Below, piece after piece: positions 6,859-58,073 of a DNA stretch of 64,000 nucleotides (its first letter is position 1; each line of letters opens with the position of its first letter). The stretch is from Nannochloropsis oceanica (Eukaryota > Sar > Eustigmatophyceae > Eustigmatales > Monodopsidaceae). The notes beneath the pieces were generated by a model that worked only from the letters and a program-made list of their open reading frames with translations, did not search any database and was not told the origin of the DNA. The DNA lies in assembly GCA_004519485.1 (NCBI GenBank), contig CP038130.1, positions 620,001 through 684,000 of the forward strand, read 5' to 3'. The translations under genes and the position numbers were made by a program.

Positions 6859-9067
6859 TCACGCGTAGATGGCAGGATTGATCTGAAATGTGTGGGAAAC
6901 GCAACAATGGTCACACATGCATATAATTTATGTGGCATCAATCAGTGTTTATATGTATATAACAAATAAATATATCTCGCAAACAATGTTTGCTATCTGG
7001 TTTCATGTCTGCTGCCAATTTGAATTTTCCTCTTTGAATGCGTGTCGGACCGCCTTATTTATCCACCAGGTTAATTATGAACTCAATCTTTGCGAGGTAC
7101 CGGAGGGTTGCGAACGGGCTAATTAATCTACACAGCAGCCGGGGACGGGCGTGCACCCTTTGGCAAGAGTGAGGAACGAACAGTTTGTCGACCCTATTAT
7201 TTCCATTTGAATCCCACCACCAACATGGCCAGTTTGACGAGACAAGTGCACATGACGACGACATCGGGCGCCTGCGACAGATTGCCCATCAGACAGGATG
7301 ACGAAGCAGCGTGGCCGATGCTGTGTTATCACGCTAAGAGACTAGGCGTGATAAACGAAGTGGCCATTTTAGTGAATGAGGATTTGGGTCACATGGGTAA
7401 TGAGGTGATAGCCTTGTATGGAAGAGGGGGTCGGATTGTGAATCAAATGGTTCAACAAGTAGTGAGTGGCCACTTCGTCCAAACCGCCTGGTGCCTTTAG
7501 TGTGACTGCCTAAAATCTGCCAATGTTGGTTCGCCTTTTAGAAAAGCGAGAGTGCGTCGTTGTAGAAGTAGACAATGGCACGAACATTATACGTCAAATC
7601 CACCGCAACCTGCCTGACGGGAATTTTTTGTACACAGGCGATCGTGGTAGTCCTCAAGCGAACTTGGCTCGTCAATCTCTCGCCATGGGAGGCCGGCCTT
7701 GTTGTTGGTGATATTCAAGTGAGAATAGTCTGGTCCCTTGTCTATCATTTCCTCATCTTTCCCAGAGAGTGTGAAAATCAGGCCCATCCAGTACATGTTA
7801 TAGGTTCAAAAGTCTCGGCACCTGTTTTACGAGCTGAAACTAGAAAAAAAAACATGATTTGCCCGGAGTAACAGTGTTCCTTTCTATCTGAAATACTTCT
7901 CAAGTTTGATCTGTCTTTTCTCCAAGAGGCAACCAACCCCCCTCCCTGATTGTCACTTGTGATTTCTTTTCCGTTCTTTTTCCTATCTTCTTATCGTAAT
8001 CGATCATCTTCCCAAAGAGATTCTCGCCAAAACCTTGTTATTTCCACACTCACACACTCACACTCACTGCTTCACTGCTTTAGCTTCACTAGCTTGAAAG
8101 AAAACAAGCGTGAACACAGTTCAGGGTGGCTTGTGACCCGACTTTAAACCCCAGAGCGTTTCGTAAAAGAGTCGAAATAGGCGATGAAGGAGGTAATTCT
8201 ACCACACCCACATATGGATAATTTAACAAACTTCCTACCGGACAGCGGACTTCCCGAGATTTGGCAGTGTGTACATCGAGATTTGGATCGAAGAAAATTG
8301 GGACGAAAAGTCAGTCTCGAACTGCGGCCCAAGGGAGTGTGAATCAAAATTTTGGACCCAAGAAAGTGATGTTGGGACACAAGTCTCGAATCCCCGCCCA
8401 AATGAAAGGGGGAGTGTGTGGCAATTCGGGCCGAAGGATATGGCTTCGGGCCACAAGTCTTAATTCGCGGCCTAAAAGATCCGTTGGAAAGAACCGTTAA
8501 GTAAGGAGGTTGGAGAGCCGTTGAAGAGGCTTGTAGCGGCCCCCGGAAAAAGTCCTCTCCTAAATAAAAGACATACTCAGCCCGAGGCTCTGGCTCAAAT
8601 TTTGGGCTGTGCCTTGCTCCTTTCCACGTACTGATTATATTCTCTCTCCTCATCATGCGGCTTGCACGCATGGGGGCGGTGTTGGCCCATTATTTTTGCA
8701 TGGGCCCATGCCTGGCAGGTGTAGCAGCAGCACACGATTCACTAGTCAGGGTTGGGCGTCATTAATCATTAATCTTGTCACTGCATGAAGTGATCTACGT
8801 GCCCAAAAACCCTTTGCCGTATTACCAGGCCTTTTGGTCCAAGGCTCACGCGCAAGGGATAGCCTTACCCATCCTATTTCATCAAAGGGCAATGCGTGCG
8901 ATGCACGGTTCTTATCTCTCATGTTTCCATGTCCCTGCATGAGACCAAGACTAGACTGGTCCACTAATTTTGAAAATGTTGCTCACATATATATTCACTC
9001 ACACAATATTACAGCTATTTTGCTCCTTCTGCTTTCCTGAGGCCACTGCCTTTTGTACCAGTCAGGT
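6859..9067. other. Gene-poor interval between VPS13 and the repeat-protein gene
   Basis: No gene here can be supported. Several open frames of 60-100 codons exist on both strands (for example 7207-7500 plus and 7587-7796 minus), but none shows a domain, a conserved motif or convincing splice sites. The interval holds the degenerate tandem repeat at 8240-8480. A perfect 14-bp palindrome, GCATGGGCCCATGC, lies at 8698-8711. An AT-rich stretch at 6900-6990 just after VPS13 probably contains its 3' untranslated region. Confidence 0.5.
8240..8480. repeat. Degenerate tandem repeat, ~70-bp period
   Basis: The element CAAGTCTCGAA followed by a CCGCCC/GCGGCC block returns at about 8312, 8380 and 8454, each time followed by GGGAGTGTG, a TTTGG or TTCGGG block and AAG. 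A more eroded unit precedes it from about 8250. Spacings are 68 and 74 bases, so units vary by small indels. What follows (8500-8640) is GGAGAGCC-type sequence with CTAAATAAAAG. This could be part of an old retroelement end, but no coding part is visible nearby, so I leave it as an unclassified repeat. Confidence 0.5.
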
Positions 9068-11208
9068 ATGATCCTGATCCGCCGCGTCACCTTCGGCTCT
9101 TTGACACTCCTATTCTGGACTATCGTCGCGCAAGGTAAGTTACGATCAGATTTATGAGGCTGTAAAGACTTAACTTGATTGGTGGGAAGGTCTTAGAGAC
9201 AGGAATGACTGGAGGAGGGGTGAAATACAACTTGCCTCAGACACTCCCTCATCTCCCTCACCTCCCCTTTCATTCACTGTAGATTCGCCGTACACTCCTC
9301 CCCCCTACGGCTCTCACCGATGGCTGGCTGAAGAAGGTAATAAACATGCTCCATATTCTAAGTCACTTACTGACCCTTCCCACCTCTATCTAACACTGTA
9401 TCCCTCCACTTCTACAAGGCTGGCCCTATACCTCTTCCACCTACGGATCGCACCGCTGGCTTGCAGAAAAGGACCCCACGAGCCCGTACACGCCTCCTCC
9501 TTATGGGTCCCACCGCTGGCTCGCGGAAGATGACACGGCAAGCCCTTACACTCCTCCCCCCTACGGATCGCACCGCTGGCTTGCAGAGAAGGACCCCGCG
9601 AGCCCGTACACGCCCCCTCCTTATGGGTCCCACCGCTGGCTCGCGGAAGATGACACGGCAAGCCCTTACACTCCTCCCCCCTACGGATCGCACCGCTGGC
9701 TTGCAGAGAAGGACCCCGCGAGCCCGTACACGCCTCCTCCTTATGGGTCCCACCGCTGGCTCGCGGAAGATGACACGGCAAGCCCTTACACTCCTCCCCC
9801 CTACGGATCGCACCGCTGGCTTGCAGAGAAGGACCCCGCGAGCCCGTACACGCCTCCTCCTTATGGGTCCCACCGCTGGCTCGCGGAAGATGACACGGCA
9901 AGCCCTTACACTCCTCCCCCCTACGGATCGCACCGCTGGCTTGCAGAGAAGGACCCCGCGAGCCCGTACACGCCTCCTCCTTATGGGTCCCACCGCTGGC
10001 TCGCGGAAGATGACACGGCAAGCCCTTACACTCCTCCCCCCTACGGATCGCACCGCTGGCTTGCAGAGAAGGACCCCGCGAGCCCGTACACGCCTCCTCC
10101 TTATGGGTCCCACCGCTGGCTCGCGGAAGATGACACGGCAAGCCCTTACACTCCTCCCCCCTACGGATCGCACCGCTGGCTTGCAGAGAAGGACCCCGCG
10201 AGCCCGTACACGCCTCCTCCTTATGGGTCCCACCGCTGGCTCGCGGAAGATGACACGGCAAGCCCTTACACTCCTCCCCCCTACGGATCGCACCGCTGGC
10301 TTGCAGAGAAGGACCCCGCGAGCCCGTACACGCCTCCTCCTTATGGGTCCCACCGCTGGCTCGCGGAAGATGACACGGCAAGCCCTTACACTCCTCCCCC
10401 CTACGGATCGCACCGCTGGCTTGCAGAGAAGGACCCCGCGAGCCCGTACACGCCTCCTCCTTATGGGTCCCACCGCTGGCTCGCGGAAGATGACACGGCA
10501 AGCCCTTACACTCCTCCCCCCTACGGATCGCACCGCTGGCTTGCAGAGAAGGACCCCGCGAGCCCGTACACGCCTCCTCCTTATGGGTCCCACCGCTGGC
10601 TCGCGGAAGATGACACGGCAAGCCCTTACACTCCTCCCCCCTACGGATCGCACCGCTGGCTTGCAGAGAAGGACCCCGCGAGCCCGTACACGCCTCCTCC
10701 TTATGGGTCCCACCGCTGGCTCGCGGAAGATGACACGGCAAGCCCTTACACTCCTCCCCCCTACGGATCGCACCGCTGGCTTGCAGAGAAGGACCCCGCG
10801 AGCCCGTACACGCCTCCTCCTTATGGGTCCCACCGCTGGCTCGCGGAAGATGACACGGCAAGCCCTTACACTCCTCCCCCCTACGGATCGCACCGCTGGC
10901 TTGCAGAGAAGGACCCCGCGAGCCCGTACACGCCTCCTCCTTATGGGTCCCACCGCTGGCTCGCGGAAGATGACACGGCAAGCCCTTACACTCCTCCCCC
11001 CTACGGATCGCGCCAGTGGTTGGCCAAAGACAATATCGCTACTGTGCCGTATGGAACGACCCAGCCCGTGATGACCGAGCGAGCGCACGAGAGCAAAATC
11101 GCGCTAGGCGAGCCCTTGTCAACCTACCATACCAAGACGCAAACCGTCGCGAGCCTGGAGATCCACGGCGTCAACAACACCGGCCGTCGGTATCTACGTC
11201 GGGGATAA
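9068..11208 (+). CDS. Secreted Pro/Tyr/Trp repeat protein (28 copies of a 20-residue unit)
   Basis: I do not recognise this family. Exons 9068-9134, 9283-9336 and 9419-11208 join in phase 1 each time and give 636 residues. The N-terminus (MILIRRVTFGSLTLLFWTIVAQ) looks like a signal peptide. The rest is 28 units of SPYTPPPYGSHRWLAE plus a four-residue linker that alternates DDTA and KDPA. Exon 2 encodes exactly one unit, and exon 3 holds 27. The first unit of exon 3 (WPYTSSTYGSHRW) and the last (SRQWLAKD) diverge. A unique tail of about 60 residues (ATVPYGTTQPV ... GRRYLRRG) ends at TAA 11206, and an AATAAA overlaps the stop. Composition (about 20-25% Pro, 10% Tyr, one Trp and one His-Arg pair per unit) suggests an extracellular structural or adhesive protein, perhaps hydroxyprolinated; that is inference. 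The frame is supported by the signal peptide, the splice phases and purely synonymous differences between unit types. Confidence 0.8.
9421..11035 (+). repeat. 60/120-bp coding tandem repeat array
   Basis: Units of 60 bases occur in two alternating types, A (starting AGCCCGTACACG) and B (starting AGCCCTTACACT), so the true period is 120 bases. From 9541 to 10980 the 120-bp dimers are essentially identical; I see only an isolated change (CCCCCTCC against CCTCCTCC near 9613). The period is a multiple of three, so several frames on both strands stay open for over 500 codons. These are by-products of the repeat, not genes. Confidence 0.97.
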
Positions 11209-12684
11209 ATAAAGAGAATATTGAGGTGGAAGAGAGAAACCGACTGAAAGCAGATGATGGAGGAAGAGAGAGAAAGAGACGACGTATTTGAAAGCCGTGA
11301 TAGCGAGTAAGTCGATCTTAGTAGATATTGAGTGGAGTGATTGACCTGGTCGAGAGCCCTACTTTCTGCTTGCTTTCGTCTGGGAGAGAAAAGGATGAGA
11401 GGTCCTGGGAGGCAGGGAATAAGTAAACTTTAAAAAAAGAGACATCATCCACTATCCAAGCCATCCCCAAAAAATATCATGAAAGATATCCGGGGGATAA
11501 AGGGAAGCATTACCTTCCTACATTCCTTTTGCGAAAGCAAGGGGCTTTTCTATCTATGGAGCACTGGAGGAGTGAAGGAGAGGGAAATTGCGACTGGTGG
11601 TCGCTCCTTTTTAACCGGTGGTGTGTAAATTGAAATGCGAATGAAAAAGAGAGAGCTAAAAACAGGAAAGTCGTCCATTTGAAATCCCATTTTCAGGGAA
11701 GCGATGTCTACTCTGCCTCTCGACCCAGGGAAGTGGCGTCTCGAGAGGGACAGGAAGATATAGCACAAACATAAGCACGTAGAACAAAACTTACTGAAGT
11801 ATGAATTACCTTTTCTGATTACACGACGGTGATACGAAGTAGCCTTGCTCCATACAATTTCTAGTGCTCAATGCTCAACTCCTGGTGCCTACAGTGTATT
11901 CAAAAACTTTCCACACTGCTGTACACCGCAGAGAATATTATCCCCCCAGAGACAAGATAATCATATCTCCTTCATTTGAGCATTCATCATGTCGGTTATG
12001 ACAGTGCATGCCTGTCATTAAAATCCAAAAATTGTTTCCTCTTGTCTTGTCTTGTTATTTCAAGTGTTCCTCCGAGGAGCTCTTTTAAATGGCGCATACA
12101 GAAGCATGCCGACACCGTACCGTGCAGAGCATCACACTCCCCGGGCGGGGTACTGAGAACAACCTCCTCCCTCTTGCCTTGTCTCTTGGTCCGACAAATA
12201 ATAAATGAGGGCAAGGTGCCCTTGGTACGTGTGGCATTGCGTGCATCGCGTATAATATCAGATTTGTTGTTCGATTTGTTTGCGACTTTTTTCTAGGTGA
12301 TTGCACGGTGGTGGGATCACATTCGTTGTGAAGGAGGCAAGCAAAAAGACTTGTACCAAAGCGGCAACGGCAAAATGGTGGGTTGGGTAACGTAAGGCCC
12401 ATGTACACTCTTTTTGTACTTAGCCACGGACAGCACCAGAACAGGAGCCAAAGCCACGACCTGCAACGCGATACATCTATACATTGAGTTTTTGAGTACT
12501 TCAGGCATATTTTGGATCATTTGTGGCTCCTCAGCAGAGAAGCTTAATCCCAATCTTTCAATTTTTTCAAATCATCCCGATGAGCCAGGGGCAAACCTCA
12601 CTCCGCTCTCACTCACACGCGCACGCATGGACAGGGTAGACAACAGAGCACCCTCTGCTACTTAAACTTAAGTACCCGTTGCAG
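11209..12684. other. Interval without a supportable gene
   Basis: This stretch holds the 3' flank of the repeat-protein gene, purine-rich sequence at 11215-11300 and the first copy of the dispersed repeat (core 12062-12141). A minus-strand open frame at 12317-12553 contains one hydrophobic segment (CIALQVVALAPVLVLSVAKY) but nothing else that supports it as a gene. Confidence 0.5.
12062..12141 (+). repeat. Dispersed repeat, copy 1
   Basis: The core contains GGCGCATACAGAAGCATGCC and then GTGCAGAGCATCACACTCC. It matches copies at 17188-17269 (inverted) and 28272-28356 at an estimated 70-85% by eye. Weaker similarity reaches about 20-30 bases upstream (a TGTCTTG-rich stretch) and perhaps to 12205 downstream. 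Read on the opposite strand, all three copies encode SACF-x-x-RH-x-K, so the element may derive from a coding fragment. Confidence 0.7.
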
Positions 12685-13529: not shown

Positions 13530-13612
13530 TATACGGCCTTGGATGAAAGCCAAGCAGAAACAAAGCATATATATACGGCCGTGGATGAAAAGCCAAGCAG
13601 AAACAAAGCATG
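13530..13612 (+). repeat. Direct tandem duplication, ~42 bp x 2
   Basis: TATACGGCC-T/G-TGGATGAAA(A)GCC followed by AAGCAGAAACAAAGCAT occurs at 13530-13569 and again at 13572-13612. Only one substitution and one inserted A separate the copies, so the duplication is recent. Confidence 0.9.
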
Positions 13613-16532: not shown

Positions 16533-18734
16533 TCAGGTCAGTTTCCCCAAAACCACCCGCCCTGTTTTGGATTGAGTTTCCCTCCCACAAGCAGCGCTGA
16601 TGAACTGTCCTGCCTGAGCTAAAGCGTTCAAATCGATACCCGTATCAACTCCCATGCCATTAAGCATGTAAACCACGTCCTCGGTTGCCACGTTGCCCGA
16701 CGCCCCCATCGCGTAGGGACAACCACCCAGCCCGGCCACAGAGGCATCCACCACTGCAATGCCCTCTTGCAGGGCTGCATGAGTGGAGAGCAAAAAATGT
16801 CAGTGATGTTGATGGGAAGTTGTTCTGATTATAATTCCATCTTGTGGGGGGAAAGACTAGAAAAAGGCAAGATCTCCTATTAATCTTTCCTACCTGTCAA
16901 AATGTTGGCCAGAGCCTGCCCATAGGTATCGTGGAAGTGCACTGCCAGGTGTTTGGCCGGGATACATGCTTTTGTTGCTAGCAGCATGGCCCGCGTGGAC
17001 CCTGCCGAAGGGAAAAGCGAGATATACAAAAACACAAATGGTGAGAAGGTACAAGAGCGGTGGAGATTATCTCTTCTCCTTCAATTAAGACAGATCGGAA
17101 CGGATCGAGTTTCCCACAATTTATCATGGTTGAGGACGGGCATATAATAAGTCGCATACGCCTTGATGGTTCATATGCAAAATTGCCCATGGAGTGTGAT
17201 GCTCTGCATGGTGCAGCATCGGCTTGCTTCGGCATGCGCCATAAAAAGCCGTCCCCGAGGGTACTCTTAAAAAAAACCAAGACGAGGCAAGGTACCTTCT
17301 GTTTATCACGACCGCGGCCTCGTCTTCAATCGCAAGGTCTTTCTTTCCTTGACAACCCCCCTTTGTTGATATTATCCACGCACCTGGGGTTCCTGCACCA
17401 ATGGTGTCCCCCAAGGAAATCTCGTAGCAGCCCATGTCGTACAGTGCTTTAGCTACTTCTGCCACCTTTTCTGGCGCTATTGCTCCCTGATAAGGACACC
17501 CCAAGACACAGGAAACGTAACCCCGCATCTTTAGCCCGCGTGATTTGGCGGCCGCTGCCACGGGCCGGAAACGGTGCAGGCTCTCGGCGATGCTGTGACG
17601 GGAAGGAAAAGTACGGAGGAGGAGGAGAAGGAAGAGAAGGAGGAGGAAAAGGAGGAGGAGGAAGACTAAGAAAACTGAAAGAGTACATCTGATGAAACTC
17701 TTTATACGTCAAATCCTTCGACCCTTGTTGCCCAACCTCTGCCTCCCTCCGCTTGTGTGCGCATCGATTGTGTGCACGAATAGGTGAATGAATTGGAGGA
17801 GCACTTTGAAAAGCAAAGCGTACCTGCAATTTATGTTTTTTTGACTGAAGGCCTCAGATGCCGCACCAAAAACTGATACTTCCATCGCCCCCGCGGCCAC
17901 GGCGTCTTCAAAGCCCTGGATGATGGTGATGGGCAAGAGGGAAAAGTGGGTAAAAGTAAAGCGCCATCCGTACCTCGGGAAAGTAATAAACAAAATCTGG
18001 TCACACATACCTTGGCGTTAGGCGTGAGCACTGGATAAGCCACCCCAGGCCTCTTGATGATGCGTGTTAGCACCTCCTTGTTGTCGCCCATCTGGGGCAC
18101 CCACTTCTTGGAAACGAAAGCCGTGACCTCAATGGTTTGCAGGCCCGCTGCGGATAGTCTAATGAAGCAAATGAGCGGGCGGACAATCGGAAAGAGGGAG
18201 CCAGTGTGAGAGAGGTTATGTGACGGTAACGACATTCTGCTGGTGATAGATCGTGAGCTATATAGCTGTTCGTTCGATTCTTAGGGAATTGAGAATGCAG
18301 GTACTTGGCAGAAGAAGAATAGAAGTCAAGAAAGTGCGATAGGGAAGACAAAGTGGTACTGCACACACCTGTTGATCAGCTCCACCTTGACGTCTGTGGG
18401 GATGATAGCCTTCTCATTTTGAAGGCCATCCCGGGGGCCTACCTGCGACCACGTGTGGTCATTGCGACGAAAGGGTCAGTCATCGTTCCCATCACTTTTG
18501 TGTGAAACAAGCCTCATCACACAGTCTAGCGACGATACTTTGATTTACCTCGACGATTCGGACCGCACTGGGCACGTTAGGGAAGAGTAAAGGGGCCATT
18601 GAGGATGAGGACGACTGCCGACGTCGGAGGCCCTTCAATGAAGAATACAAGTGAAGGACATGTTTGCGCGTTTCAAAAAGCCTCTTGGTGGCGGGACCAA
18701 GCATAGCAGTGTTATGGCAGGTCTTGCGCCCCAT
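16533..18734 (-). CDS. HMGCL: Hydroxymethylglutaryl-CoA lyase
   Basis: It cleaves HMG-CoA to acetyl-CoA and acetoacetate, the last step of leucine breakdown and of ketone-body formation, usually in mitochondria. Exons on the minus strand, 5' to 3', are 18734-18549, 18442-18369, 18158-18011, 17915-17824, 17592-17384, 17001-16894 and 16774-16533. All phases fit and give 352 residues, close to the family's usual length. Family signatures in order are [11 protein letters not shown] (catalytic Arg-Asp), the [10 protein letters not shown] block, [49 protein letters not shown] (metal-binding His pair) and [20 protein letters not shown] (catalytic Cys loop). The first 45 residues are basic and hydroxylated, as in a mitochondrial presequence. 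The C-terminus (VVLGKLT) has no peroxisomal SKL-type signal. The intron 17002-17383 carries a dispersed-repeat copy. Confidence 0.95.
17188..17269 (-). repeat. Dispersed repeat, copy 2 (inside an HMG-CoA lyase intron)
   Basis: On the minus strand it reads GGCGCATGCCGAAGCAAGCC and then CATGCAGAGCATCACACTCC, matching copies 1 and 3. It lies wholly within the intron at 17002-17383. That intron is the longest of the gene at 382 bases, against 92-231 for the others. Confidence 0.7.
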
Positions 18735-20748: not shown

Positions 20749-21453
20749 GACAGCTGTGCTTGCAGCTACGCTGGCGTGCAGTATTATTATTTTTTGGGCT
20801 GCCACAGCTTTGTCGTCACGCTACTGCTATGCTACTGCTTGTGGTCCTGCCTGTTGCTACCCTATGCACAACGTGTGGGTGTGGGACTGCGCCCAGAGCT
20901 TGCAGTGATAAGGCATATATATGACGATTTGAATCATAATATGATGCTTGTGCCCCATACATCATTTCGTTCGCAGACTCCCTTTATGCTTGCACTTGCT
21001 ACAAAAGCTATGCGTTCCTCGAGCCAAGAGGGTGCAGGCAGGGCGGCAATGCCTGCAGGCGGTGCTTGAGGATGTGTGCCAGGGCGTGGCTCTCAGTATT
21101 GATCTTCGCTCTTGGCAATTTAACTCTGTCAACTCTGTAGGGTTAGCCTTATGATGTTCGTTTGCTCGTCGCTCGACGCCGACTTTCTTCCTTATGCATT
21201 TTTGCTCTGCTTTTTTTGGGTGATAACTGCCATCTTGCGCTTTGCCATCTTTGAGCTCCGCGCAGGCACTCGTGTGTACTCTCTTCCCATCCTCTCATTA
21301 TGAACTCTCTTCACCCCCGAACCCCAAATGACCCACACAGGCAAGCAAGACGACGCCCGGACCAAGCGAGGTGGCAGAAGCTGTTGCTCAACCACGGACA
21401 GTAGCAAGAGGACAAGGCAACTTAGCTGTCAGTCTATGTGGTGACGGGAGTGT
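20749..21453. other. Divergent intergenic region
   Basis: This lies between the divergently read SNARE and FHA-PP2C genes, so it probably holds both promoters. No gene or RNA is visible. A GAT-rich AT stretch at 20910-20945 and a short T-rich run near 21205 are the only compositional features. Confidence 0.5.
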
Positions 21454-24400
21454 ATGAAGAGCATTAAAAGTATCCCTACCCGAGCTGCCGGGGAGGACAG
21501 TAAGAAGACTGGCAGCATCAACGTTCCACGTCCCAACAGCCTTAAAGGCTTCGACTTGCGCAGCATCAGGTCCTCGATGAAGGGCGTCTTCTCTCGGCGG
21601 TCAGAAGCGGTCAGTAGCAATAATAGCAGCAGTAGTAACAGTGGCTGCGATCGACATGGGGGCGATGGCGGCTTCTTTAAAACCTCAAACGCAGACGAGC
21701 AGGAAAGGCTATCTGAGTCCTCGTTAACCACGACTGCAACTTCCACGACTTCGTGCGCTGGAACAACGCTCCTGTCTGTCTTCCGGGCTGAGAGCACAAC
21801 CGACGTAGGATTCAACAAGGCAAATGCCTCTTCGCCGGCGGGTGGAAGTGGGCTATCGTCGTCCGGTGGTCCAAGTGGGCAGGCGGAAGTGGCACTGTCC
21901 GAGAATGTAGGACAGGCAGCAGCACAGCACAAGAGCCAACCGCCACCGCAGCCGCCGCCGCCGCCGCCGCCACCGCCGCCCCCATCTGTTAAGGACATAG
22001 CACAATCAAAATACGGCGATGACGAAGGTGAACATCTGATGAGCCTGGTCGGTGCTGGTGGAGAGCAAGTCGTGCGGCGGTTGGAGAAAAGTGCTTCATT
22101 TCTTGCCGCAGCTGCAGGGGGCGCGGCGGCTTCTCTCACGTCCCTGATTGGCTCGTCGCCAAACCAGCGGCCCCGCCGTCGCAATTCCTCGTCAGAAAAT
22201 GACAAGAAGCCAGTTATGGCACCCACAAATGAGAGGGTGGCAACAATCATGGAGCTAGCCGAGAAGGAAGAAACAGCTGTGAGTCACGGCAATGTTGGCG
22301 GCCTTTCTCTTGACCCCGCTTCGATCTACGATGGCACAGAGACTCTCTCTCGGAACCACCCAGTTTTCCAAATGATCAGGCAACGTTCGCAAGTCGTGGG
22401 AAAAGCAAGTGGAGAGCCCTTCGGGCCACGGAAGGAGAGTGGGGGGACGGAAGTCAATAGCGGCACAGGCGGAGGCGGGGATGGAGCCAAGGTCGAGGAG
22501 CTTGCATACTCGGGATTGTCTTCGACTTCCCTACCCTCGGCCTCCTTATCTGGTGCTGAGCAACATGACAGCGCCTGCGGGGAATCTTATTCGAAGCCTG
22601 TCTGCACGGAGACTCGTAGCAATGTTTGCAACCACATGGACGCCGGCGGCAATACCATCACAGGCGATGATGGCGGAATGCTGGACGTCACAGCCGCGGC
22701 CCCGTTTCAGGAGAAGGCCTACACTCCTTTCTCGCCGCGGAAGAAGATGGGATACCACCATGGGTACGTGGAAAAGCTGGTGCTAAAGTTCACGACGTAC
22801 TCGCAGAACAACGAGGAGTCGGCCTTCGTGATCGGAAAAGCCGGGGGCACTATTGGCCGGGACTCAAACAATACGGTTTCCGTACCCTCGGATATGACGC
22901 TGCAAAAAGAGTGCCACGCCGTCATTGGGCATAAGGCCGGCAGCTTCTACCTCAAGAACCACGGCAGCACCCACTGCGCCGCCATCAGAATAGGCACCGA
23001 GCCCGGCCTTCGCGACTGGCCTTTGGGACTTGGCGCCACCTTCTCTGCCGGCAATTCGATCTTCGTCGTCAAGGAGCTGGAAGGCGGAGAGCTGATTGTT
23101 GAGGTCATCGACGGACCTCTCGAGGGTGAGCGGCGGAAGGTGGGCCAGAGGGGCGCCACGCTGGGCCGCTCTCCCGATAATACCCTGAGCATTGCGGACC
23201 CAGAGCTGTCTCGCCGCCACTCCCGCATTGAGTACGACGATAAGGACGGCAAGGTATCAAACGTTTCTTAAGGGGTAGCGCCTGTGGCGACGAAAGGAAG
23301 AGAGGAGAAGATGCATTCTCAATTTTTTCGCGTTCTACTCACCTCTTCTCCTTCCTCCCCTTTCTCCTCCCCCGACAGTATTACTTGTCAGACGTAGGTT
23401 CAACCAACGGCACCTACATGCAGCTCGCGGGGCCTTACGCGAAGGTCTTTTATCTCTCACTCGGGTATGGACTATGACACACAAGGCAGCACGGACCGGG
23501 GGCTAGGATGGCTTCTCAGACAAACCCTGCCCCCTCTGGTTCTATCTCCCTTCCTGTCATTTCCTTCCACTTGACAAGCACTGACCACTCCTGTCCGTTT
23601 CTCTTCCTACCTCCCTTTCCTTCTCCACAGAGATGAGATCATGGTAGGTCGCACGGGCTTCTCGATCAACCGTTACGACTACGGCATCAGCGAGGAGCGA
23701 GGCAGACGCAAGACGATGGAGGATCATACCGTCGTCGTCCAGGACTTGGGCGTGCGGGCTCTCAAGCGCTTCGGCCTGGCACCGCAGACTTTCGCAGCAG
23801 TCTTCGACGGGCACGGCGGAGAGGAGGCTTCGGCCTACCTGGCCAGGCATTTGCACGTGAATTTGACCGAGACGCTGGAGCAGCTCTTCGGGGCCATGCC
23901 GGGGAGAAAACTGCCGGGCACGGAGGAAGTGGACGAGATGGTGAAGGCGGCGGTGCTGGAGGCCTTCCACAAGACCGACAGCGACTTCCTAACCAATGGC
24001 AATGTGGATGCCGGCAGCACGGCCAACACCGTTTTAATAATGGGCCGGCGCGTCTATTCTTGCAATGTTGGCGACTCGCGCACCGTCATCAGCCGGGATC
24101 AGAAGCTGCTGCTGTGCTCCAACGACCACAAGCCCGCGCGAGAGGACGAGGCTCGGCGCATCCGGGAGGCAGGGGGATTCATTTTTCAGAACCGTGTGAT
24201 GGGTGAGTTGGCGGTGTCAAGGGCTTTCGGTGACCGTGAGCTGAAGAAGTGCATGCAGGAGATCATGGCGCCCGAGGAGCTGGAGCAGATGAGCCTGCGC
24301 GACGCCAAGAGCGACGGGGAGGACATCTTGGTCAAGGACTACTCGCAGCCTCTTGTTATCGCCCGACCGGAGTTTATTGTTTCTGAACTGATCGAGAAGG

Positions 24401-24600
24401 ACGACTTTGTATTGTTGGCATGCGACGGTTTGTTTGATGTCTTCCCCAACGCGGAGGTGGTGCAATTTGTCATCGAGGAGATGCGACAGCACCACGACGC
24501 ACAGCGTGCCTGTGAGAATCTGTCGTACACAGCAATCCATCAACGTATTGCCCACGATAATGTGAGCATTGTGTTGCTTGTCATTAGCAAATGGTGGTGA
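21454..24600 (+). CDS. Tandem-FHA PP2C-type protein phosphatase
   Basis: A metal-dependent Ser/Thr phosphatase with phosphothreonine-reading FHA domains, reminiscent of plant KAPP. Exons 21454-23253, 23379-23464 and 23631-24600 give 951 residues. Residues 1-440 are disordered, rich in Ser and Gly, with a polyproline run coded near 21945-21985. FHA 1 (about 445-540) has GRDSNNTVSVPSD. FHA 2 (about 545-640) has the full signature GRSPDNTLSI, LSRRHSRIEY and GSTNGTYM, split by both introns. The PP2C domain (about 640-951) keeps RRKTMEDH, FDGHGGEEAS, VYSCNVGDSRTV, GELAVSRAFGD, LLACDGLFDVF and HDNVSIVLL, which includes all expected metal-binding Asp residues. The second donor is placed at 23465 because it yields LSLGDEIMVGRTGF, a standard FHA end. 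FHA 1 lacks the RRH motif and may not bind phosphate. Confidence 0.92.
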
Positions 24601-28027: not shown

Positions 28028-28845
28028 GACGGGTGCCTGGCTCAGATGTTCCAGAATGTAAAATAGGTAGTGGGGAAAAAAGTTTGTGAGCACCTGGGGC
28101 GGGTCGCGGCCTCTGTTTCTTCAGCGTTGTCTGCTTGAGATGGCGTGCCTGTTGGCGAACCCCACCCACCCACGCCCCTTTTGTCTATATTTCTCCCATT
28201 GGTAGCTGAGAGTTAGTTTTTGTGATCCAGTCTGAGAGTGTTTTGTGTGGTTTGTTTGTTGTTGCTTTCCTTCAGAGTGCTCCATCGGGAAGGGCTTTCT
28301 ATGGCGCGTGCCGAAGCAAGCCGACACTGTTCCATCCAGAGCACCACGCCCCCATGGACAGGGCGCTTAGATCTTACGCACTAACACAATCTCGGGGTTT
28401 GTGCGGCTCTATGGCGCTGACACATGTACACCCGCCCTCGACCATAATGGTTTGTTCTACGTTCCATCACCCCCTCAATAATACAAATATGCCCCAAATC
28501 ATGATAATATCCATCTGCTTCTACCCTCTCTCATATTGATTTTGAATAATTTGTTGATTTGATACATTTTCCAATTGTAGCTATGCCCCCGTTTTCTCTC
28601 TAGTCGCGGATTTATACACATGGCCTGTGCCGTCGGCCGGAAATCTCATAACATAATAATTGCCCCAGCCGCTTCTTCCCCGACGTCCCTGTCGCTGCCA
28701 CCACAGCCCACCACCCTGCTGCGAGCCTCTCGTAGGCGTGATTGGTCTGAGATCAGTGTATCCACACCCACATTCCCCCCCCAACCTTACACCTACAAGC
28801 TTAAACAGCTTTAAAACAGCTTTCTGTACGTACTCCAAACCAGCC
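28028..28845. other. Divergent intergenic region with dispersed repeat
   Basis: This lies between the divergently read sphingosine kinase and C2H2 genes. It contains the third dispersed-repeat copy. The sequence just before 28846 is C-rich (28660-28800) and probably untranslated leader. In-frame extension of the C2H2 protein back to 28660 is possible but has no ATG. Confidence 0.5.
28272..28356 (+). repeat. Dispersed repeat, copy 3
   Basis: It reads GGCGCGTGCCGAAGCAAGCC and then CATCCAGAGCACCACGCC. It is the most diverged core. About 100 bases further on, CCCGCCCTCGACCATAATGG (28431-28450) resembles CCCGTCCTCAACCATGATAA downstream of copy 2, which suggests the element is nearer 200 bases long. 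Confidence 0.65.
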
Positions 28846-43245: not shown

Positions 43246-46200
43246 ATGGAGGAGGACATAGCCGCCGGGACCACAATCAGCACTGTCGGGAGCGGAGCTG
43301 CTACGACGGCGGCGACGACAACGATGACGGAAGAGGAAGAGGAGGAGGAGGAGGAGGAGGCAGAAGTTGAGATGGTGTTCGACTCGGCAAAGGAGACCGA
43401 AGATGAGGAGGTCATTGCTTCCCCAGCGGCGCCAATGCAACCCGCTTTGCCTCCCGTGAATAAGGATGAAGGCTGCAGCAGTAGCAGCAACACCACCACC
43501 ACCACGACCACCAACAACAACAATAACAAGAACACCAAGAACATGGAGATAGGCCGTGAGAGCGCAGCGGCAGGGGCAGCGGTACCGGCAGCGCCAGCTC
43601 CTGAGTCAGCTGATGTCGTGCCTGTCCCCGAGAAGAAGAAGTATGCCTACCGTCCTCCACGCATGGGAGATTCGTTTCAAGCCACCGTGCCCACTTTTGG
43701 TTCCGAGGTATGTGCTGGTCAAAAGGAGATCATGTCTATTGCCTTTGATTTGGTTTGCTGAGGGCGCATTACGGGCAGAGGCATGTCTTCCCTTCGACGT
43801 GCAGCTAGTCGGCATAACACCACGCGCACCTCAACTGCTGTAAGCAAGCTCACTCGATGTTTTGTTCTTGTTTCTTTTCCCTTACTAAAGACGACGCACG
43901 CCCATCGGACACGCACAACGACCAAAAAGACAGCGCCCGAGGCCAGCATGAACGACCTGCGACCGAACCAGACCTCGTTGCGGGACGGGTTGATTTGGGA
44001 ACCCTCGGCGCTTTCCGGGGAGGAGGTAGACAACTACCTGATCATGACGCGTGGCCTGGTCATACAAACATCGCACACTCGCGATCGACACGAACCCCGC
44101 TGGCGACGGCCAGGTGTCTCGTCCACTGGCGTCCTACTCACAGCGGATCAAGAAGCAGCGGCAACCGCAGTGGCAGCAGCAGGTGGGGGGACTGGTGACA
44201 TCATACCATTGGAGGCTGACGAGCAGGCGCTGTTTTACCTGTACCAACAGAATTACAAGCTGGACATGACTTTTTTGCGCCTGATCTCTGAGCTCGGGAT
44301 GCAGAAAGGTGCGCATTGCTATTGTTACACGCGTACCTGCTTCCAGTTGTCCTGTACATATCCTACTCTTGCACATTTGACCCAATATTTCTCACCTCAA
44401 CTCACCGCACTCTTTTTCTGGTCCACACTCCTTTCCACACCCAACAGAGCACAAGTTTCTGCACGCGCTTAACACGCTTTATCAGTCCGGTGCTTCGGCT
44501 TCCTCGCTAGACCGGCGCGATCGCTCAACGCTCATAGGGTCTTTCGCCTCTGGAGGCACGCCATATGTCGGCTATGCACGGGGGGGGCGTGCCGCGCAAT
44601 TTCCTTACAAGTATTCTTTCCCCATCAAGGTGGCGCCTCTGGTGGCAAGCAAGTTGGCCACGAACGATGAAGATGGCTGTGGTCCTGATGACCAGGAGGA
44701 GGGAGAAGAGGATGAGGCGCCGGGCGAAGGGTGAGTGTGTTTGTCTCCTACGTGTTTCTCTCCCTATTTCTATGACAAGTTCCTCTCTGTCCCCCAAATG
44801 ATATTTTATTCCTTTCACTCTCCCTCCTTTCCTCCTCACTTGATTTTCTAACAGCCGGGAGAAGAAGAAGCGTTCCGCCGACAAGACTGAAACGCGGAAG
44901 CAGTACGTGATATTGGCAGAGCGAGCAGGCAATCTTTGGCGTATTTTGGAAGCAGCTCGCAAGAAAGCTAGCAGTAGCGGCAGCAGCAACAGCACCAACA
45001 ACAATAATAACAGCAACAACAATAGCAACAACAACCTCAATGGCGAGTCCTCGGGGGGAACGTCAACAGCAGCTGGGCCCCCGGCGACGGATCGACCCAG
45101 CCAGGCACATATGATGACGCTCCTTCGAGAGATAGCCAGTTTGCCCAACCTTGAGCTCCCTCCCGGTGGTACGTGCGTGCAAGTGTTTGTGTTTCCATCC
45201 TCTTTCTTGCTATTTTATCCGTCACTCCTGCGCGTCACTTCTAATTCACGTCATCCGCAAACCTCCCTGTACCCCCCACACCAGATATCCCCGCCAAGGA
45301 GATGGAGAAGTCCTTGGGGGGTCTGAAGGAGGCTCTGGCGACGTCCAGGCAATATGTAGCCAAGGTTCATGACGCTCTCAACACCACAGCGGGTCAGCCT
45401 AGCACGATTGCTGACATCAAGGATCTTCTTGAGGAGCTCCAGCAGCAGCCCATTCAACTTCTGGTACGTGTGATAGGACGATGAACGAATGTAGTGTGAT
45501 TGTTGTTGTTGTGCTATACAATTGGTCATACTGATCACTACAATATCCCCGCCTGTACTCCTCCTTCCTACTATATCACCAGGAGGAAGCTCAACTATCC
45601 CGCATCGTCGCCGAGGCGACGGCATGGCAAACGGCGGCCGAGGAGCTAGCACAACACCTGGAGAGGGCCTCCCTCCCCGACGCTGAGGTCCTGATCGCAG
45701 CCGCGGATGCTCTGCCCCTACATTTCGAGCTCAAAACCTGGCTGCAGGACAAGGTCGAGGAATGCCGGGCGCTGGGGAAGGAGATTTGCGCAGCTGTGCC
45801 TTTTCGGGCAGCGCGGAGCATGGGAGAATGTCAAACAATAGAAGCGTTGCGGCGGCTGCTAGAACGGGCTCGCGAGGTGCGGCTGCAGTTTCCCGAAGTG
45901 GAGGTGCTGCAAGCAGTGATCGGGCGCACAGAGAAGTGGTTGGGCGAAGCAATGGTGGCTGTATCAGAGACGCCGGATTTACGGAAGTTACAAAATTTGT
46001 TGGAGGATGCGAATACCATCCCTGTAGACTTGAGCGAGACGTGCGATGTGATCAAGGGCAAAGTGGAGCAGGCCCATCAGTGGGTGGAGAAGGTCCGCAA
46101 GGCTCTCCCTCGCAAAAATAAGACCCGCAGTAACGCCAGCGACGCGGGCAAGGTAGATTACACGGCGGCTCGCACCCTCTTGAATGAAGGGGAGGGCATC

Positions 46201-49200
46201 CGTGTGGGCGTGAAGGAGCTGGATGACATTGCCGGGGTGCTGGATACGGCGGAGACCTGGCTTCAGCGTGTGCGGGGTGCATTGGAGGAGTCGACGGATG
46301 AGACGGGTTTACAATCTTTACAAGCGCTCCTGTGCGAGGCTGATGACATCCCCGTGGAGATGGACGAGCACAAGATTCTGGCTGCGGAGATTGAGGCTCG
46401 TCGGTGGGGGTTGCGGGTACAGCCTCGCCTTGCCGGGTCCAAGGTCACTGTCAAGGCGCTGGAGAAGCTAGTGGCGGAGGCCGCGGGGCTGCGAGCGCGT
46501 CTACCTCTTGCCGCACAGCAGCAGAAATCGTGGCGGCTACCGGAGGAGATTGAAGCCCGTAGTCGGTTGCAGAAGGCGTATGCCTGGCTGAAGGATCATC
46601 GAAGCTGCGTCAACCCCAATGGGTTGGGCTTCCGCAAAGGGGTGACGGTGCACAAGGTTCTACAGTTGCTTCAGCGTGCGCGGGCCGTACCTGTGGACTT
46701 GTCGGAGCCCATGAGACAACTGGAGGACGCGGTGGTCAAGGCGGAGAAGTGGCTTGAGGCCTCGGCGGGCATTTTGCAATCTTGTGGAATTCAGCAGCGG
46801 ACTGCGTTCACGCTGCCGGAGACCAAGGCAAAGGCTGCCGATGGGGCGGAAAGGGATTCTGGATCTGCGGATGGTAAGGGTGGGGAAGGGGAAAAGGAAA
46901 AGAATGCTATCGAAGATAAGGATGAGGAGGAGGTAGATGTCGATGATGACGATGCCGAGAGCTCGGGTGATGACGAGGAGATTTTGCCTACGGGCCTGAA
47001 GGTCGAGCAGGAGGCATTAGTGGAGTGTGTGGGAGAAGCTTCTGACATCGGATTGGAGCTATACGAGGCAGAAAAACTCAAGGCATTGCTGCAGCGCATG
47101 CAAGGATGGCTGGACCAGTTGGGGGTAGTGTGCCCAAAACGGATGAGTAAGCGGCGGGGGATGCGATTGAAGGTGACGGTACAGGAGGTGCACGACCTGG
47201 TGGAGCAGGGCAAGGCCTTGCCGATCAACCTCTCGGAGGAAGTGGAGGAGATCACTGAGCGCTTGCAAGCGACGCTCAAGTGGCAGACGGAGGTGCAGGC
47301 CGAGCTGCTGGACATTGCGCGGGACGGACTCCGTGAAAGCAAAGCCTACAAGCTTAAGGAGGTCAAAAAGGAGAGAGAAGAGGAAATGGACGAGGCTAAT
47401 AAGGAAGCGGGCGAAGGCGATGATGTCTTCAACGAAACGCATGAAAAGCGGCTGAAGCGCTTGGAAGCGCTGGTGGACCAGACGAGCGACGTTGGGATCG
47501 AGTCGGCGGAGGACGACATGATTATTCGGCACCTGAAGGCCCACAAGTGGGCCTCAAGCGCCATTGATCTCTTAGAATTTGTCGATCCTAAATCGACCAT
47601 CAACGAAGTGTGCATGGCCGAGATTGCGGACGTAGTGACCGATGGTGATGGAGTACTGCATAAGGAGGTGGTGGACGAGGACGCAGAGTGCGGAGCAATG
47701 AACCGACAACCTTCTTCTTTGGGGAGAAGGGAGTCTCCTTCAGTCAGTGTCAGTGAGAAGGAGGGCGGTAGCAGCGCGAACGCGGGCTCCTCCTCGGCGA
47801 TTTGCTCTCCAGCGTCCGCCACGGGACGGGGGGAGAGGAGGTGGTCGTCGTCGGCAATGGCAGCGGCTAGCGCTACTGGTGGAGAAACCATGGAGATGGA
47901 TGGCGCCGAGAATGACGAGGGTGTGGGGGAGGGCGAGGAGGAAGATGGGACTGGGTACGCGACCAAGAAGGATTTTGAAGTATACGTGACAGAGCAGGGA
48001 GAGGTGAAGAAGCGGCGCTTGAAACCGAAGATGAAAAAGGTGCTGGTGGAGAGTCATGGAGAGTGTGATGAAGTGCTGCAGGAGATGATGCTCTTTTGGT
48101 GGGATCAGATTGGCAGCCTGCGGAGGATTTGGGAGACGAGCCGGGAATGGTCCAAGCGCGCCACGCGGCTGCTGAGCCCAGGCGGGGAGAAGGTGAAGAT
48201 GGACGTGATGGAGTCCTTATTGGCCGAGACGGCGGAGTGGGGCTTTAACATGGACCTTGTCAATCGCGTGAGGGCCGAGGTAGAGCGGGGGAAGAGCATA
48301 TTGGCCCGGGCTACATCAGCGTTGGAGGGGGATGATTCAGCGAAGCTTGAGCTGCCGGTGCTTAAGTCTCTTATCACGGAGGGCGACAAGTGCAAGGTAC
48401 TGGTCGAGGAGATCAAATCCCTGCGCAAGCATGTCGCTAGTGGGCAGCGATGGATAGCGCGATACCAGAAGTCGCGGCCAGAGGAGCTGGACGAGATGAT
48501 GGCCCTGGCGGAGGAAGCGAAGGAGATTCGTATGGACCTAGGGGAGGACTTGCAGACGGTGCTACACAGTGTAACACGCTGTTGCTTTTGCCGACAGACG
48601 GTGGACGGTCCCTTGGTCCGCTGCACGGAATGCGGGGAGAAGTATCATCAACGGTGCCTGGCTGTGGGGGAGACGGATGCAGTGGATTGGGAGCGGCAGG
48701 GATGGTGCTGTCCGCGTTGCTTGGTGCGATGGCACATGCGGGACGCTCTTGCCAAGACGATGGTCATTGTCTCCAAGTGGATCGCGGTGCCCAACGCCTC
48801 GCCGCTGGGCCCCATCCCGTTGCTGGGTCAGTCGATGATGGCGCAAGGGCTGTACGGGGGAGGCAACCCCATACTAGAAGACCCTTATATAAGGGCGTTG
48901 GAGGTGACGACGGGGAAAGTCAAGGCCTGGATGAAGCGCTTGTTGCATGCAATTATAGTCTGCGCGGATCGGAATGCAGAGGAGGTCCGGACGCTAGGCA
49001 CGTCCAAGCTTGTCAAGAGCAGCGTGCTGGTGGAAGTCATTCGGCTGGCCAAGGGGGATTCGGATGTGGACAAATGCGCTGATGTTAAAGAGGTGATCTG
49101 GAACCTGAGCGTGGTCTTTTGGGGCGCCCGCCTAGTCTGCCAGCTCCGGCGTCGGCCGAGCTTGGTACCCCTGCAGGCGCTGACGGCTGAGATGCAGTCG

Positions 49201-50364
49201 GTGGGGATTCACAACGAGCCGCTGCAGGTGATGTTAAACAACCTCATCTCGCGGGCCATGGAGTGGATCTACAAGACCAAACCAATGTTGCGCGAAGGCT
49301 GGCTTAGTGGTGACCATGCGTTCATTGATGTGGAGCGGCTGCGGGAGCTGATGAAGGAGAAGCGCAACATACCCGTGCGCCTGCTGTTGGAGAGGCGGGT
49401 TGAGGCCATGCTCTCGGAGGAGCCGGGCAAGCGGTATTGTCACTGCCGCGGCTTTTACGATGGCTATTTCATGGTACAGTGCGTTGCCTGCAATGAGTGG
49501 TTCCACGGTAAATGCGTACAGATTCGGGCGGAGGACTTGGACAAGAAAACTGACTACCAGTGCGTGGCGTGCTCGGAGCAGAAGAAGCAACCTTATCCCT
49601 ATCTGCCCTACCGCGCGCCTGATCCAGACCTTGCCTTGGCCGAGGTAGACGAGGAGGAGGAAGAGGCCGTGGCGGAAGCCATTCTGGGCGGGGCTGCAGG
49701 TGGAATTGACACTGGAGGTGCCGGCTTGGCGGCAATTGCAGGCGGAGTTAATATGCTGGACCAGGATGAAGAGATGATCATGGCCGACAAGGTCAGCTTG
49801 GAGGGCATTTTTCCATGCAAGAAGAAGCTCATTTCGTTGGACGAGTCTTCGAATCACGTGGACGTCTACCTCTTGCCCTTACCCGCGTCGCTAAAGCGCA
49901 AGAAGATCGTGACAGGGGGAGGTGGCGAACGTCGAGCGCCGGGGCTTTCCTCTGCGATGGAGGGCGCGAGCAAGAAGAAACACAAACCTACCCATTCTGG
50001 AAATGCCGGTAGCGGAGGCTACGGTGGTGGAAGTGGCGGGGGTGGGTCCAAGGGAGGGGGGGGAGAAAGCGGTGGTGCGAATGGTGGGGATGGGGGAGGG
50101 AGCGGACGTAGTCACAGCAAATCGAAGAAGAAGAAGCCTGTATTTCCCTCTGCTCCCGATGGCGGAGCAGATAGTGGAGTAGTGGCGATGGCGGGCGTCG
50201 AGCCCCCTGTCGCGGTTCCTGTTGTGGGCGTGGCCAAGCCGGGTGACTTGGTTGCCGCCGCAAGCCAGCGTGGCCGTGTACGCAAGCCCCTCCGCAAGCC
50301 AGATGATTTCGTCTTTGGCAGCGGGGGTGGAGGAGGTGGAGGTGGTGGTGGATATCGAAAGTGA
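43246..50364 (+). CDS. ELM2 / PLU-1-like-repeat / double-PHD chromatin protein
   Basis: A 2,145-residue nuclear protein built from exons 43246-43707, 43891-44308, 44448-44730, 44855-45168, 45285-45463 and 45583-50364; all phases fit. An ELM2 domain (about 135-290: RPPRMGDSFQATVPTF, GLIWEPSALSGEEVDNYL, EQALFYLYQQNYKLDMTF) is the kind that recruits histone deacetylases. From about 405 to 1,550, and again to 1,835, helical modules of 50-60 residues repeat the pattern LL-x-EA-x2-IPV-x-L ... A-x2-W-x3-V. They resemble the PLU-1-like region of KDM5 demethylases. PHD 1 (about 1,551-1,600) has CCFCRQTVDGPLVRCTECG, HQRC and CCPRC. PHD 2 (about 1,838-1,885) has YCHCRGFYDGYFMVQCVACN, WFHGKC and CVAC. 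No JmjC, ARID or SANT domain is seen, so it is not a demethylase. The C-terminal 200 residues are Gly/Lys-rich. The start is ATG 43246; a longer 5' coding part is possible. Confidence 0.85.
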
Positions 50365-51119
50365 CACAAAGAAGCTGTAGGAGGGCGATTTGATGGGGTA
50401 AAGGGAGAGGGAAAGAGAGAGAGGGACGGGAGGATTTAGGAAGGAGGGTTAAGTACTGAGACATTTAGATATAGATATCAATCACAGATAAATACACCCA
50501 AAGGCGGGAACAAACAAACAATCTGCCAAGATTGATTGATTGATTGATTGATTGATTCGTTTTTTTTGTCAGATCGATATTGACCCTAATAAAACCTCTT
50601 TATGTATCGAAATGTTTAATGAACCATTTAACATGCCAGATGGGGAAAAAGACGTGCCAAGACAACTTTGTTTTTGACCTCCTGCCCATTTTTGAATCAG
50701 CCAACAAGTTGGTCAACGGCAGTCTCCCAGGGGTTAGGTTTGTGGGCCCTCGATGCCTATGTCACCGGCATGACAGCCGCTTGCAAACACAAAATAGACA
50801 TCTCTGTACATTAAGGTGGTCTTTGGGTCAATATATAGGCCTGGATAAGTGAGCAACATGGCAGCAAATCTGTGTGATCTCTCGCACTTATTCATTCGCC
50901 ATCATGCCCTGCAACGCACCCACGCCCTTTCATCGTCGCCCCACGTAACCCCGCATATTAGCACGTTGACGGAGTGCACGCGCATGTACAGGGCGCAAGA
51001 AAAGCATGAATGCCATCTGTTGTGGTAGTTCCGGAATGTTTCGGATGTCCTCCGCGTCGAGATGAACCAGCCGTCTCACTCACCCCTCGGTACTCTCGCA
51101 CTTACAGATTTTCGCAGCC
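50365..51119. other. Intergenic
   Basis: This is the 3' flank of the chromatin gene and 5' flank of the glycoprotein gene. It contains a short GATT microsatellite at 50531-50556. No gene or RNA recognised. Confidence 0.55.
50531..50556 (+). repeat. (GATT)n microsatellite
   Basis: Six consecutive GATT units are followed by a T-run. Confidence 0.9.
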
Positions 51120-53976: not shown

Positions 53977-54030
<54 letters not shown>

Positions 54031-57000: not shown

Positions 57001-58073
57001 AGCTCTGCATCCTAGGGGAAGCCCTGGGCAAGCTTATGACGTTTGGAGATTCAGGCCCTTTTGAGGGGGAGATTTTGGTGACGTACCTTAATCCGGCAAA
57101 ACCTAGTTCGATACAGTCTTTGCGTATGCCCATTCAGCTCTACGGCTCCTCCGTGGATGGTGCAGATCAATACCCCCCGTATTGGGGCTGGCATGATTAC
57201 ACGCCTCAGCCGGCCAAGCCCAAACCCATCCCCGGGTCCAGCCTCTCCTGCACGGCGGCCCGCGAGCTGATCCAGGACATTTACATCAATTTCGAGGAGA
57301 CGGTAGGGGGTAGTCTGCGGTTCTGGGATACAGTGGAGGTAGCAATGAAAGTCTTTATGGTCAACATCTTCTCGTTCCCTCTGGAGGTCTCCCACCTCCG
57401 ACTCACAATGTTTTTCCGGGACCCAGACGGCGTGTTCGATTCCAGGCCCTCCCTCATGGCTTACCCGCCGTCCTACGATTATAGCTTGTTCTACAAAGTA
57501 GACCTGCCCACTCCAGGTTTCTTTATTGCGCCGGGAGAAGGGAAATGGACACCGATCCTACGGCCGCGCATGAATGAACGAAAACTGATGGAAAGCTTGG
57601 CGAGGCTCTTTGACGAGGTGGTTGTTCACAAGCGTTTGTGTGTCGACATTGTGGACTCGGTCATTGGGGTGACCATTCGAAGCAAGGATTATGTTCCGTC
57701 GGAAGAGCCGTTTGTTATAAATTTGCCAGTCTCTATCCGCTCCATTCCATTTTATAGCGCTGATGCTTGTGGGACGACGCCGGCCACAGCGGCTCCGGCG
57801 GCGAAATTGCAACAGTTACAGGAGCTGAAAGAGCAGAAGCACCAGCATTTACATAATATGAAGCAATTGAAGGAGAGCGAAGAAGGAGATGAACCGTGGA
57901 AGAATATTATAGGCGGACAGAGAGAGACTTTCGACGAAAGCGTGGCCACTGACATTGGCTCAGACGGCCGAATGCTGCGGGTGAACCCAGGCACGGCCAC
58001 AGTACTAGAAGCGGAGCGGGATGGTAGGATCATAAATAAACACACCCACTCGCGGACAAGGAATTACCAGTAG
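51120..58073 (+). CDS. Giant type II membrane glycoprotein (2,317 residues), unknown family
   Basis: An intronless gene, start ATG 51120 in good context. A basic cytosolic N-terminus of about 82 residues (LRHKLQKWRG) precedes one strong membrane span at about 85-112 (MGFSFIFLAVTIMMCVLLVD), so about 2,200 residues should lie in the lumen or outside the cell. That part is beta-strand-like throughout and has many N-x-S/T sites (NNT, NLS, NMT, NTS). It contains recurring modules with phrases such as LALIDVAL, LQIPPLTMQIHNG and LRVRIKAP. This recalls LEA2/WHy-like or DUF3712-like proteins, but I cannot assign it. At about 945-1,020 a run of about 20 Asp from (GAT)n and a Glu/Lys-rich stretch interrupt the fold. 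Paired Cys (CMNPNSPC, CGHLPCKESVCKYIC) fit an oxidising compartment. The C-terminus is Gln/Lys/His-rich. Confidence 0.7.
53974..54030 (+). repeat. (GAT)n coding microsatellite (poly-Asp)
   Basis: Nearly pure GAT triplets encode a poly-Asp run inside the giant glycoprotein gene and grade into GAG-rich codons up to about 54140. It is likely to be length-polymorphic. Confidence 0.95.

Follow-up and report, generated by a model that had tools for sequence, protein, structure and literature searches.

A spliced gene lying in the 64,000-nucleotide stretch of DNA analysed as a whole (the window) encodes a probably secreted repeat protein in which, to judge from the codon differences between its repeats, the exact 16-residue unit SPYTPPPYGSHRWLAE is under purifying selection in the proposed reading frame and is more tightly constrained than the linkers separating its copies. 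The most likely fates of the resulting chain are processing into numerous copies of a single small peptide and use in its intact form as surface or wall material. We prefer the former by a narrow margin, i.e. a secreted multicopy peptide precursor that would be cut at R-W-L sites, because the constraint centers on the unit and is weaker on the linker, and because the single unit without such a site is the last. Three features go beyond what an earlier, sequence-only reading of this DNA had described, i.e. the stronger selection on the 16-mer than on the linker, a two-unit higher-order repeat, and R-x-L-x-E at the ends of 27 of the 28 units.

Gene Model and Signal-peptide-like Start

Once both GT-AG introns are removed, a single open frame of 636 residues is obtained, with its stop codon ending at 11208 (Table 1). 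Retention of intron 1 closes the frame after 29 residues, and retention of intron 2 shifts it and leads to a stop; when exon 2 is skipped, the frame stays open over the extent tested. An in-frame stop codon is located upstream of exon 1 at 9038, and the interval up to the start codon is free of in-frame ATGs. Since methionine occurs in the spliced frame only at residues 1 and 592, translation of the array requires an upstream ATG, e.g. that of exon 1.

The first 22 residues, MILIRRVTFGSLTLLFWTIVAQ, contain a hydrophobic core (best 12-residue hydropathy 1.85) and two arginines among the first eight positions, and so have the hydropathy and charge expected from the earlier description of exon 1 as signal-peptide-like. 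The call was made by a simple hydropathy-and-charge rule alone, which is passed by 20 of the 1,247 open ATG starts of the window, that of exon 1 among them; exon 1 is thus a good, though unproven, candidate for a signal peptide.

Table 1. Coordinates of the gene and its repeat units in the window
Feature	Position	Strand	Description
exon 1	9068..9134	+	start codon and signal-peptide-like MILIRRVTFGSLTLLFWTIVAQ
intron 1	9135..9282	+	GT-AG, 148 nt, from sequence only
exon 2	9283..9336	+	54 nt, symmetrical phase 1-1, carries only unit 1
unit 1	9285-9332	+	alone in exon 2
intron 2	9337..9418	+	GT-AG, 82 nt, from sequence only
exon 3	9419..11208	+	units 2-28, tail, stop codon
unit 2	9421..9468	+	first half degenerate, WPYTSSTYGSHRWLAE
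units 3-27	9481..10980	+	each exact; main part of the 120-bp dimer array, DDTA and KDPA alternating
unit 28	10981..11028	+	last part degenerate, SPYTPPPYGSRQWLAK; sole unit without R-x-L-x-E
tail	11029..11205	+	59 residues, ending ...NNTGRRYLRRG; one R-x-L, one N-glycosylation sequon

Repeat Units, Linkers, and the DNA Array

The 28 copies claimed earlier hold as a count of units, but just 26 are exact; the other two, units 2 and 28 near the ends of the array, are degenerate variants that differ from half B of the dimer at 4 and 3 residues, respectively. Unit 2 has lost PPP and kept YGSHRWLAE. The linkers run in the order EG (after unit 1), KDPT (after unit 2), 13 DDTA alternating with 12 KDPA, and DNIA. 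With a net charge of 0 for KDPA and -2 for DDTA, the alternation of acidic and mixed-charge linkers that had been proposed is borne out, as is the high density of proline and tyrosine. In composition the chain is 20% Pro, 9.6% Tyr, and 4.7% Trp, with a pI of 5.6 and a mass of ∼69 kDa when intact; past residue 22 there are 49 Lys plus Arg residues versus 73 Asp plus Glu, and neither Cys nor Phe.

At the DNA level the gene contains a higher-order array of near-identical two-unit (120-bp) dimers, for which TRF gives a 120 bp period, 13.1 copies, and a 99% match. Starting at 9481, 13 successive 120-bp dimers can be set against dimer 2 as the reference; dimers 1 and 3-12 then each show one difference, always at the same position, so that the odd base belongs to dimer 2. 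The 16 differences of dimer 13, the odd dimer-2 base included, arise because unit 28 and the sequence downstream have diverged. The near-identity of the dimers may reflect recent expansion or continuing homogenization of the array. A degenerate DNA motif for PYGSHRW, allowing up to 2 mismatches, has 28 matches in the window, all within the gene and 26 of them exact, against an expectation of 0.03 in shuffled sequence; a search for paralogues in the window by local tblastn with the unit, the tail, and the N terminus, the gene being masked, gave chance-level matches only (best E 0.084).

Selection on the 16-Residue Unit

As the dimers are copies of each other, the informative comparisons are those between the dimer halves A and B, together with unit 1 in its own exon, and the synonymous test therefore concerns three independent versions rather than 28. 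Halves A and B differ in 10 of the 16 unit codons, every change being synonymous (10 nucleotide changes for 11.7 synonymous sites and 0 for 36.3 nonsynonymous ones), whereas 3 of the 4 codons in the linker differ and 2 of its 4 residues are changed. Unit 1 differs from A in 10 codons and from B in 8, again all synonymously, and so encodes an identical 16-mer; the EG linker that follows it is different from the others and shorter. When 10 random changes were introduced into half A in simulation, none of 200,000 trials was all-synonymous.

The same comparison bears on the choice of frame. Over the full 20-residue halves, 13 codons differ in the proposed frame and 2 of these differences alter the residue; the other five frames incur 13, 13, 12, 14, and 4 residue changes, and stops interrupt two of them, the offset +2 frame (13 changes) in one half and the frame with 4 changes in both. 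The synonymous-only divergence of A, B, and unit 1, together with the small number of residue changes, shows that the frame is real and that the exact 16-mer is kept by selection; the amino acid unit, unchanged while its DNA drifted, is therefore functional.

Searches for Relatives and Structure Prediction

No relative was found among phages, plasmids, the PDB, IMG/VR, GTDB, or NCBIfam, and since none of these is a eukaryotic protein database the absence says little. In detail, a tblastn search of phage records with a 58-residue stretch brought up 18 of them (best E 2), none with a meaningful match, and the PDB sequences gave one weak match (E 0.65). The unit patterns had no match in IMG/VR; there the pattern for unit 28 plus tail had 16 matches and in GTDB genomes there were 31 pattern matches, none being a relative. 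At E 1 the plasmid search was empty and no NCBIfam family was matched. A literature search with six unit fragments found no paper in the collection searched, and literature searches on the protein gave nothing either.

In Pfam, unit 28 plus tail matches nothing at E 10, and the whole exon-3 ORF matches only the SIC repeat (PF03482) at E 0.001. Membership of that family was rejected: the whole-ORF score of 40.9 bits (cut-off 25) is read as a sum over exact Pro-rich copies, no single stretch passes, the best covering 13 of 30 positions, and pieces of one to four units fall below the cut-off (14.2 bits for 40 residues, 23.2 for 80, and 16.2 for the N-terminal 81).

AlphaFold models of eight units, made from one sequence without an alignment, have a strand at HRWLA in all units (best pLDDT 55.8, pTM 0.39). 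A wrong-frame control likewise gave regular strands (best pLDDT 56.7, pTM 0.39), and so a β-solenoid with Lys/Asp charge ladders between its rungs, which had been considered, was dropped. Over five models the real frame is the more even (55.8, 51.7, 50.7, 48.6, and 45.4, compared with 56.7, 52.3, 35.7, 35.6, and 35.2 for the control), yet all values are low. A Foldseek search of the PDB returned three matches (best E 4.7), none meaningful, and the models are not used as evidence for any structure.

The R-x-L-x-E Motif and a Proposed Multicopy Precursor

Units 1-27 all close with R-W-L-A-E, and the looser R-x-L-x-[EDQ] is likewise present in 27 of 28; this motif could be a processing site. As a guide to how readily it arises, which is all that frequencies can give for a motif chosen post hoc, among permuted versions of the unit 5% contain R-x-L and 0.6-0.8% contain R-x-L-x-[EDQ]; the corresponding counts in nine further ORFs from the window, 9,439 residues in all, are 63 and 8, or 0.13 and 0.017 per 20 residues. 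Nor are the 27 copies independent of one another, the distinct versions that keep the motif being units 1, 2, A, and B.

In the proposed mechanism the chain would enter the secretory pathway, where a protease would recognize R-W-L and either cut there or trim the motif. With a signal peptide of 22 residues, cutting after R-W-L is predicted to yield 25 20-mers (12 of AEDDTASPYTPPPYGSHRWL, 12 of AEKDPASPYTPPPYGSHRWL, and one with KDPT), along with a pair of shorter fragments from the N terminus and a single long one comprising unit 28 and the tail. Once freed, the Pro/Tyr/Trp peptides might serve at the cell surface, whether as part of the wall or matrix, by the logic of silaffins and silacidins, or as a signal.

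The variation of the linkers in both sequence and length while the 16-mer is fixed counts for such a precursor, as does the lack of Cys and Phe beyond residue 22. Counting against it are the frequency of R-x-L by itself, in permutations and in the other ORFs alike, and the absence of any dibasic (Kex2-type) site from the array, RR occurring at residues 5, 630, and 634 only; moreover, packing or crosslinking of a polymer in register would conserve every residue too. We consider it unlikely, if worth stating, that the whole of a more specific scheme holds, in which a precursor with 27 sites and R-x-L-x-E inside every repeat gives one small surface or signaling peptide, in two alternating forms (KDPA and DDTA) fixed at 1:1 by the two-unit repeat, and in which the R-x-L code extends beyond the silica proteins and export motifs known to use it.

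The closest parallel is with wall protein precursors of diatoms, in which, as described in PMC4557024, R-x-L lies on the C-terminal side of single repeats and is proposed to be a general endopeptidase site; the endopeptidase itself is called unknown in the diatom literature, as represented by PMC5525289. Like the silaffin and silacidin precursors in the account of PMC4557024, the present chain has a signal-peptide-like start, short tandem repeats, and an R-x-L near the unit end, here on the C-terminal side in 27 of 28 units. By contrast with the lysine-bearing silaffins and the Asp/Glu/Ser-rich silacidins, the unit here is rich in Pro, Tyr, and Trp, and its R-W-L is followed by A-E. The diatom parallel may be misplaced.

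RWLAE also matches the loose R-x-L-x-E of the PEXEL/TEXEL sites of plasmepsin V and ASP5, e.g. RRLAE in GRA16 and RTLAQ in KAHRP, but those sites, as presented in PMC4764566, do not occur one per tandem repeat. Toxoplasma ASP5 is described in the same source as strict for RRL, with RKL at ∼35-40%, so by that rule RWL would not be an ASP5 substrate.

In yeast α-factor and similar Kex2-processed precursors, a signal peptide is followed by exact core copies that alternate with short, acidic spacers containing Ala. The present chain is similar to α-factor in both its exact copies and its spacers, but the dibasic sites between units that characterize Kex2-type precursors are absent.

A Possible Uncut Structural Polymer

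That the chain acts uncut, as a secreted wall, sheath, or adhesive protein, comes a close second in probability. Tyr crosslinks (with or without Trp), or contacts between Tyr, Trp, and Arg, would then hold together chains extended by Pro and patterned in charge by KDPA and DDTA. The Pro, Tyr, and Trp contents, the lack of Cys, the exact tandem units, and the signal-peptide-like start are all consistent with such a polymer, and PMC3149072 recognizes a broad kind of secreted Pro-rich protein with tandem repeats, distinguishing in its plant and green algal data 31 classes, 81% of them with very limited distributions. As such proteins of plants are mostly lineage-restricted, the absence of relatives is not odd and favors neither reading. 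Of the features taken to define the broad kind, a signal peptide and Pro-rich tandem repeats over at least 100 residues, the repeat length and the 20% Pro are as found, and the signal peptide is a candidate by the hydropathy rule only.

Like the Pro-rich repeat proteins and extensins covered in PMC3149072, the chain has a signal-peptide-like start, exact Pro-rich repeats over most of its length, and Tyr. It differs from extensins in that the unit, linker included, is of 20 residues, contains Trp, His, and Arg, and combines a conserved 16-mer with a variable linker. The Ser-Pro4 repeats given for extensins in PMC3149072 are lacking (SPPP 0), the extensin crosslink motifs YxY and VYK number 0 each, and the chain is acidic rather than highly basic. 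The wall or adhesive role offered by the sequence-only reading stands as a rival to the precursor; the absence of these extensin features goes against it, as does the finding that selection on the 16-mer exceeds that on the linker.

Mussel foot protein 1 is a secreted protein of exact Pro/Tyr-rich decapeptide repeats. The resemblance extends to exact Pro/Tyr-rich tandem units; unlike the mussel protein, the chain here has one Lys per 40 residues and instead has Trp, His, Arg, and acidic linkers.

If the preferred precursor is correct and R-W-L is cut, the gene would give rise to one exact 20-residue peptide in many copies and would offer a natural substrate with which to seek the R-x-L endopeptidase of the diatom literature (discussed in PMC5525289). 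If left uncut, the chain would be a material protein of great regularity, built on Pro/Tyr/Trp and alternating in charge. On either reading, the synonymous-only divergence of the units shows that the precise 16-mer is of consequence for the organism, and this constraint sets the protein above the usual orphan low-complexity proteins.

Less Probable Readings

It is very unlikely that the gene encodes the precursor of a cyclized ribosomal peptide like the plant lyciumins, with Trp8 joined to Gly4 in PPYGSHRW before release. The resemblance is in the repeated cores and in the P2-Y3-G4...W8 layout of the eight-residue cores, as in the lyciumin cores QPYGVYTW and QPYGVFAW, in which Trp is joined to Gly at position 4; lyciumin precursors can also be multicopy, with twelve cores in LbaLycA (both from the account in PMC11253845). 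The P-x-G-x-x-x-W pattern appears in 1.2-1.5% of unit permutations, which also counts for this reading. It was, however, noticed post hoc, and core position 1 is Pro rather than the Gln needed for pyroglutamate. All characterized lyciumins, as reviewed in PMC11253845, arise through a fused BURP-domain pathway, but the BURP domain (PF03181) was found neither in unit 28 plus tail, at the E 10 level used for Pfam, nor among 23 other ORFs of the window (8 + 5 + 10 scanned).

Were exon 1 not to encode a signal peptide, the chain could be a cytosolic multivalent ligand for WW domains, which we regard as equally improbable. PPxY motifs are WW domain ligands, PPPY fits PPxY, and there are 27 copies. 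Against this, exon 1 is a signal peptide candidate by hydropathy, and unit 2 has kept YGSHRWLAE and lost PPPY, the reverse of what a WW ligand predicts.

Least probable is a non-coding minisatellite or an array translated in another frame, for although three further frames are open across the array, 120 being divisible by 3, and each dimer has ATGs in the frame beginning at 9374, the other frames incur far more residue changes between halves or, in two cases, contain stops, and unit 1, in a separate exon, encodes the same 16-mer with different codons.

Surroundings of the Gene

Introns, together with matches such as those to the PLU-1 and TAF8 C-terminal domains, mark the window as eukaryotic. 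It has a GC3 of 61%, a GC content of 48-58% per 2-kb step, long ORFs, and few introns, which would be in keeping with a stramenopile alga, e.g. a eustigmatophyte. Upstream of the gene, at 8400-8460, a purine-rich stretch followed by TGTGTGG resembles, by eye, the edge of an LTR element. Downstream, a dispersed repeat of ∼63-71 nt (12084-12146, 17185-17261, and 28282-28352) has arms that are 81-82% complementary and a middle copy that is inverted, and is possibly a small mobile element. A direct duplication of 43 bp (95% match) lies at 13530-13611.

An HMG-CoA lyase-like fragment (HMGL-like, E 2.7e-10) is present on the minus strand at 17127-17708. The 1,609-residue ORF at 45535-50361 has PLU-1 and PHD matches and no JmjC match in Pfam, an absence that is unusual for a KDM5-like protein. 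The single 2,335-residue ORF at 51066-58070 has no Pfam match at E 0.001; by eye it has a hydrophobic stretch near its start and an Asp-rich run in mid-chain. At 21445-24600 one ORF closes with an FHA match (profile positions 2-30 of 67) and the ORF after it matches a PP2C phosphatase, so that this is probably a single FHA-PP2C gene with an intron between the ORFs; compared with solved structures, the PP2C ORF best matches PPM1B/PPM1A, with several other PP2C chains also matched.
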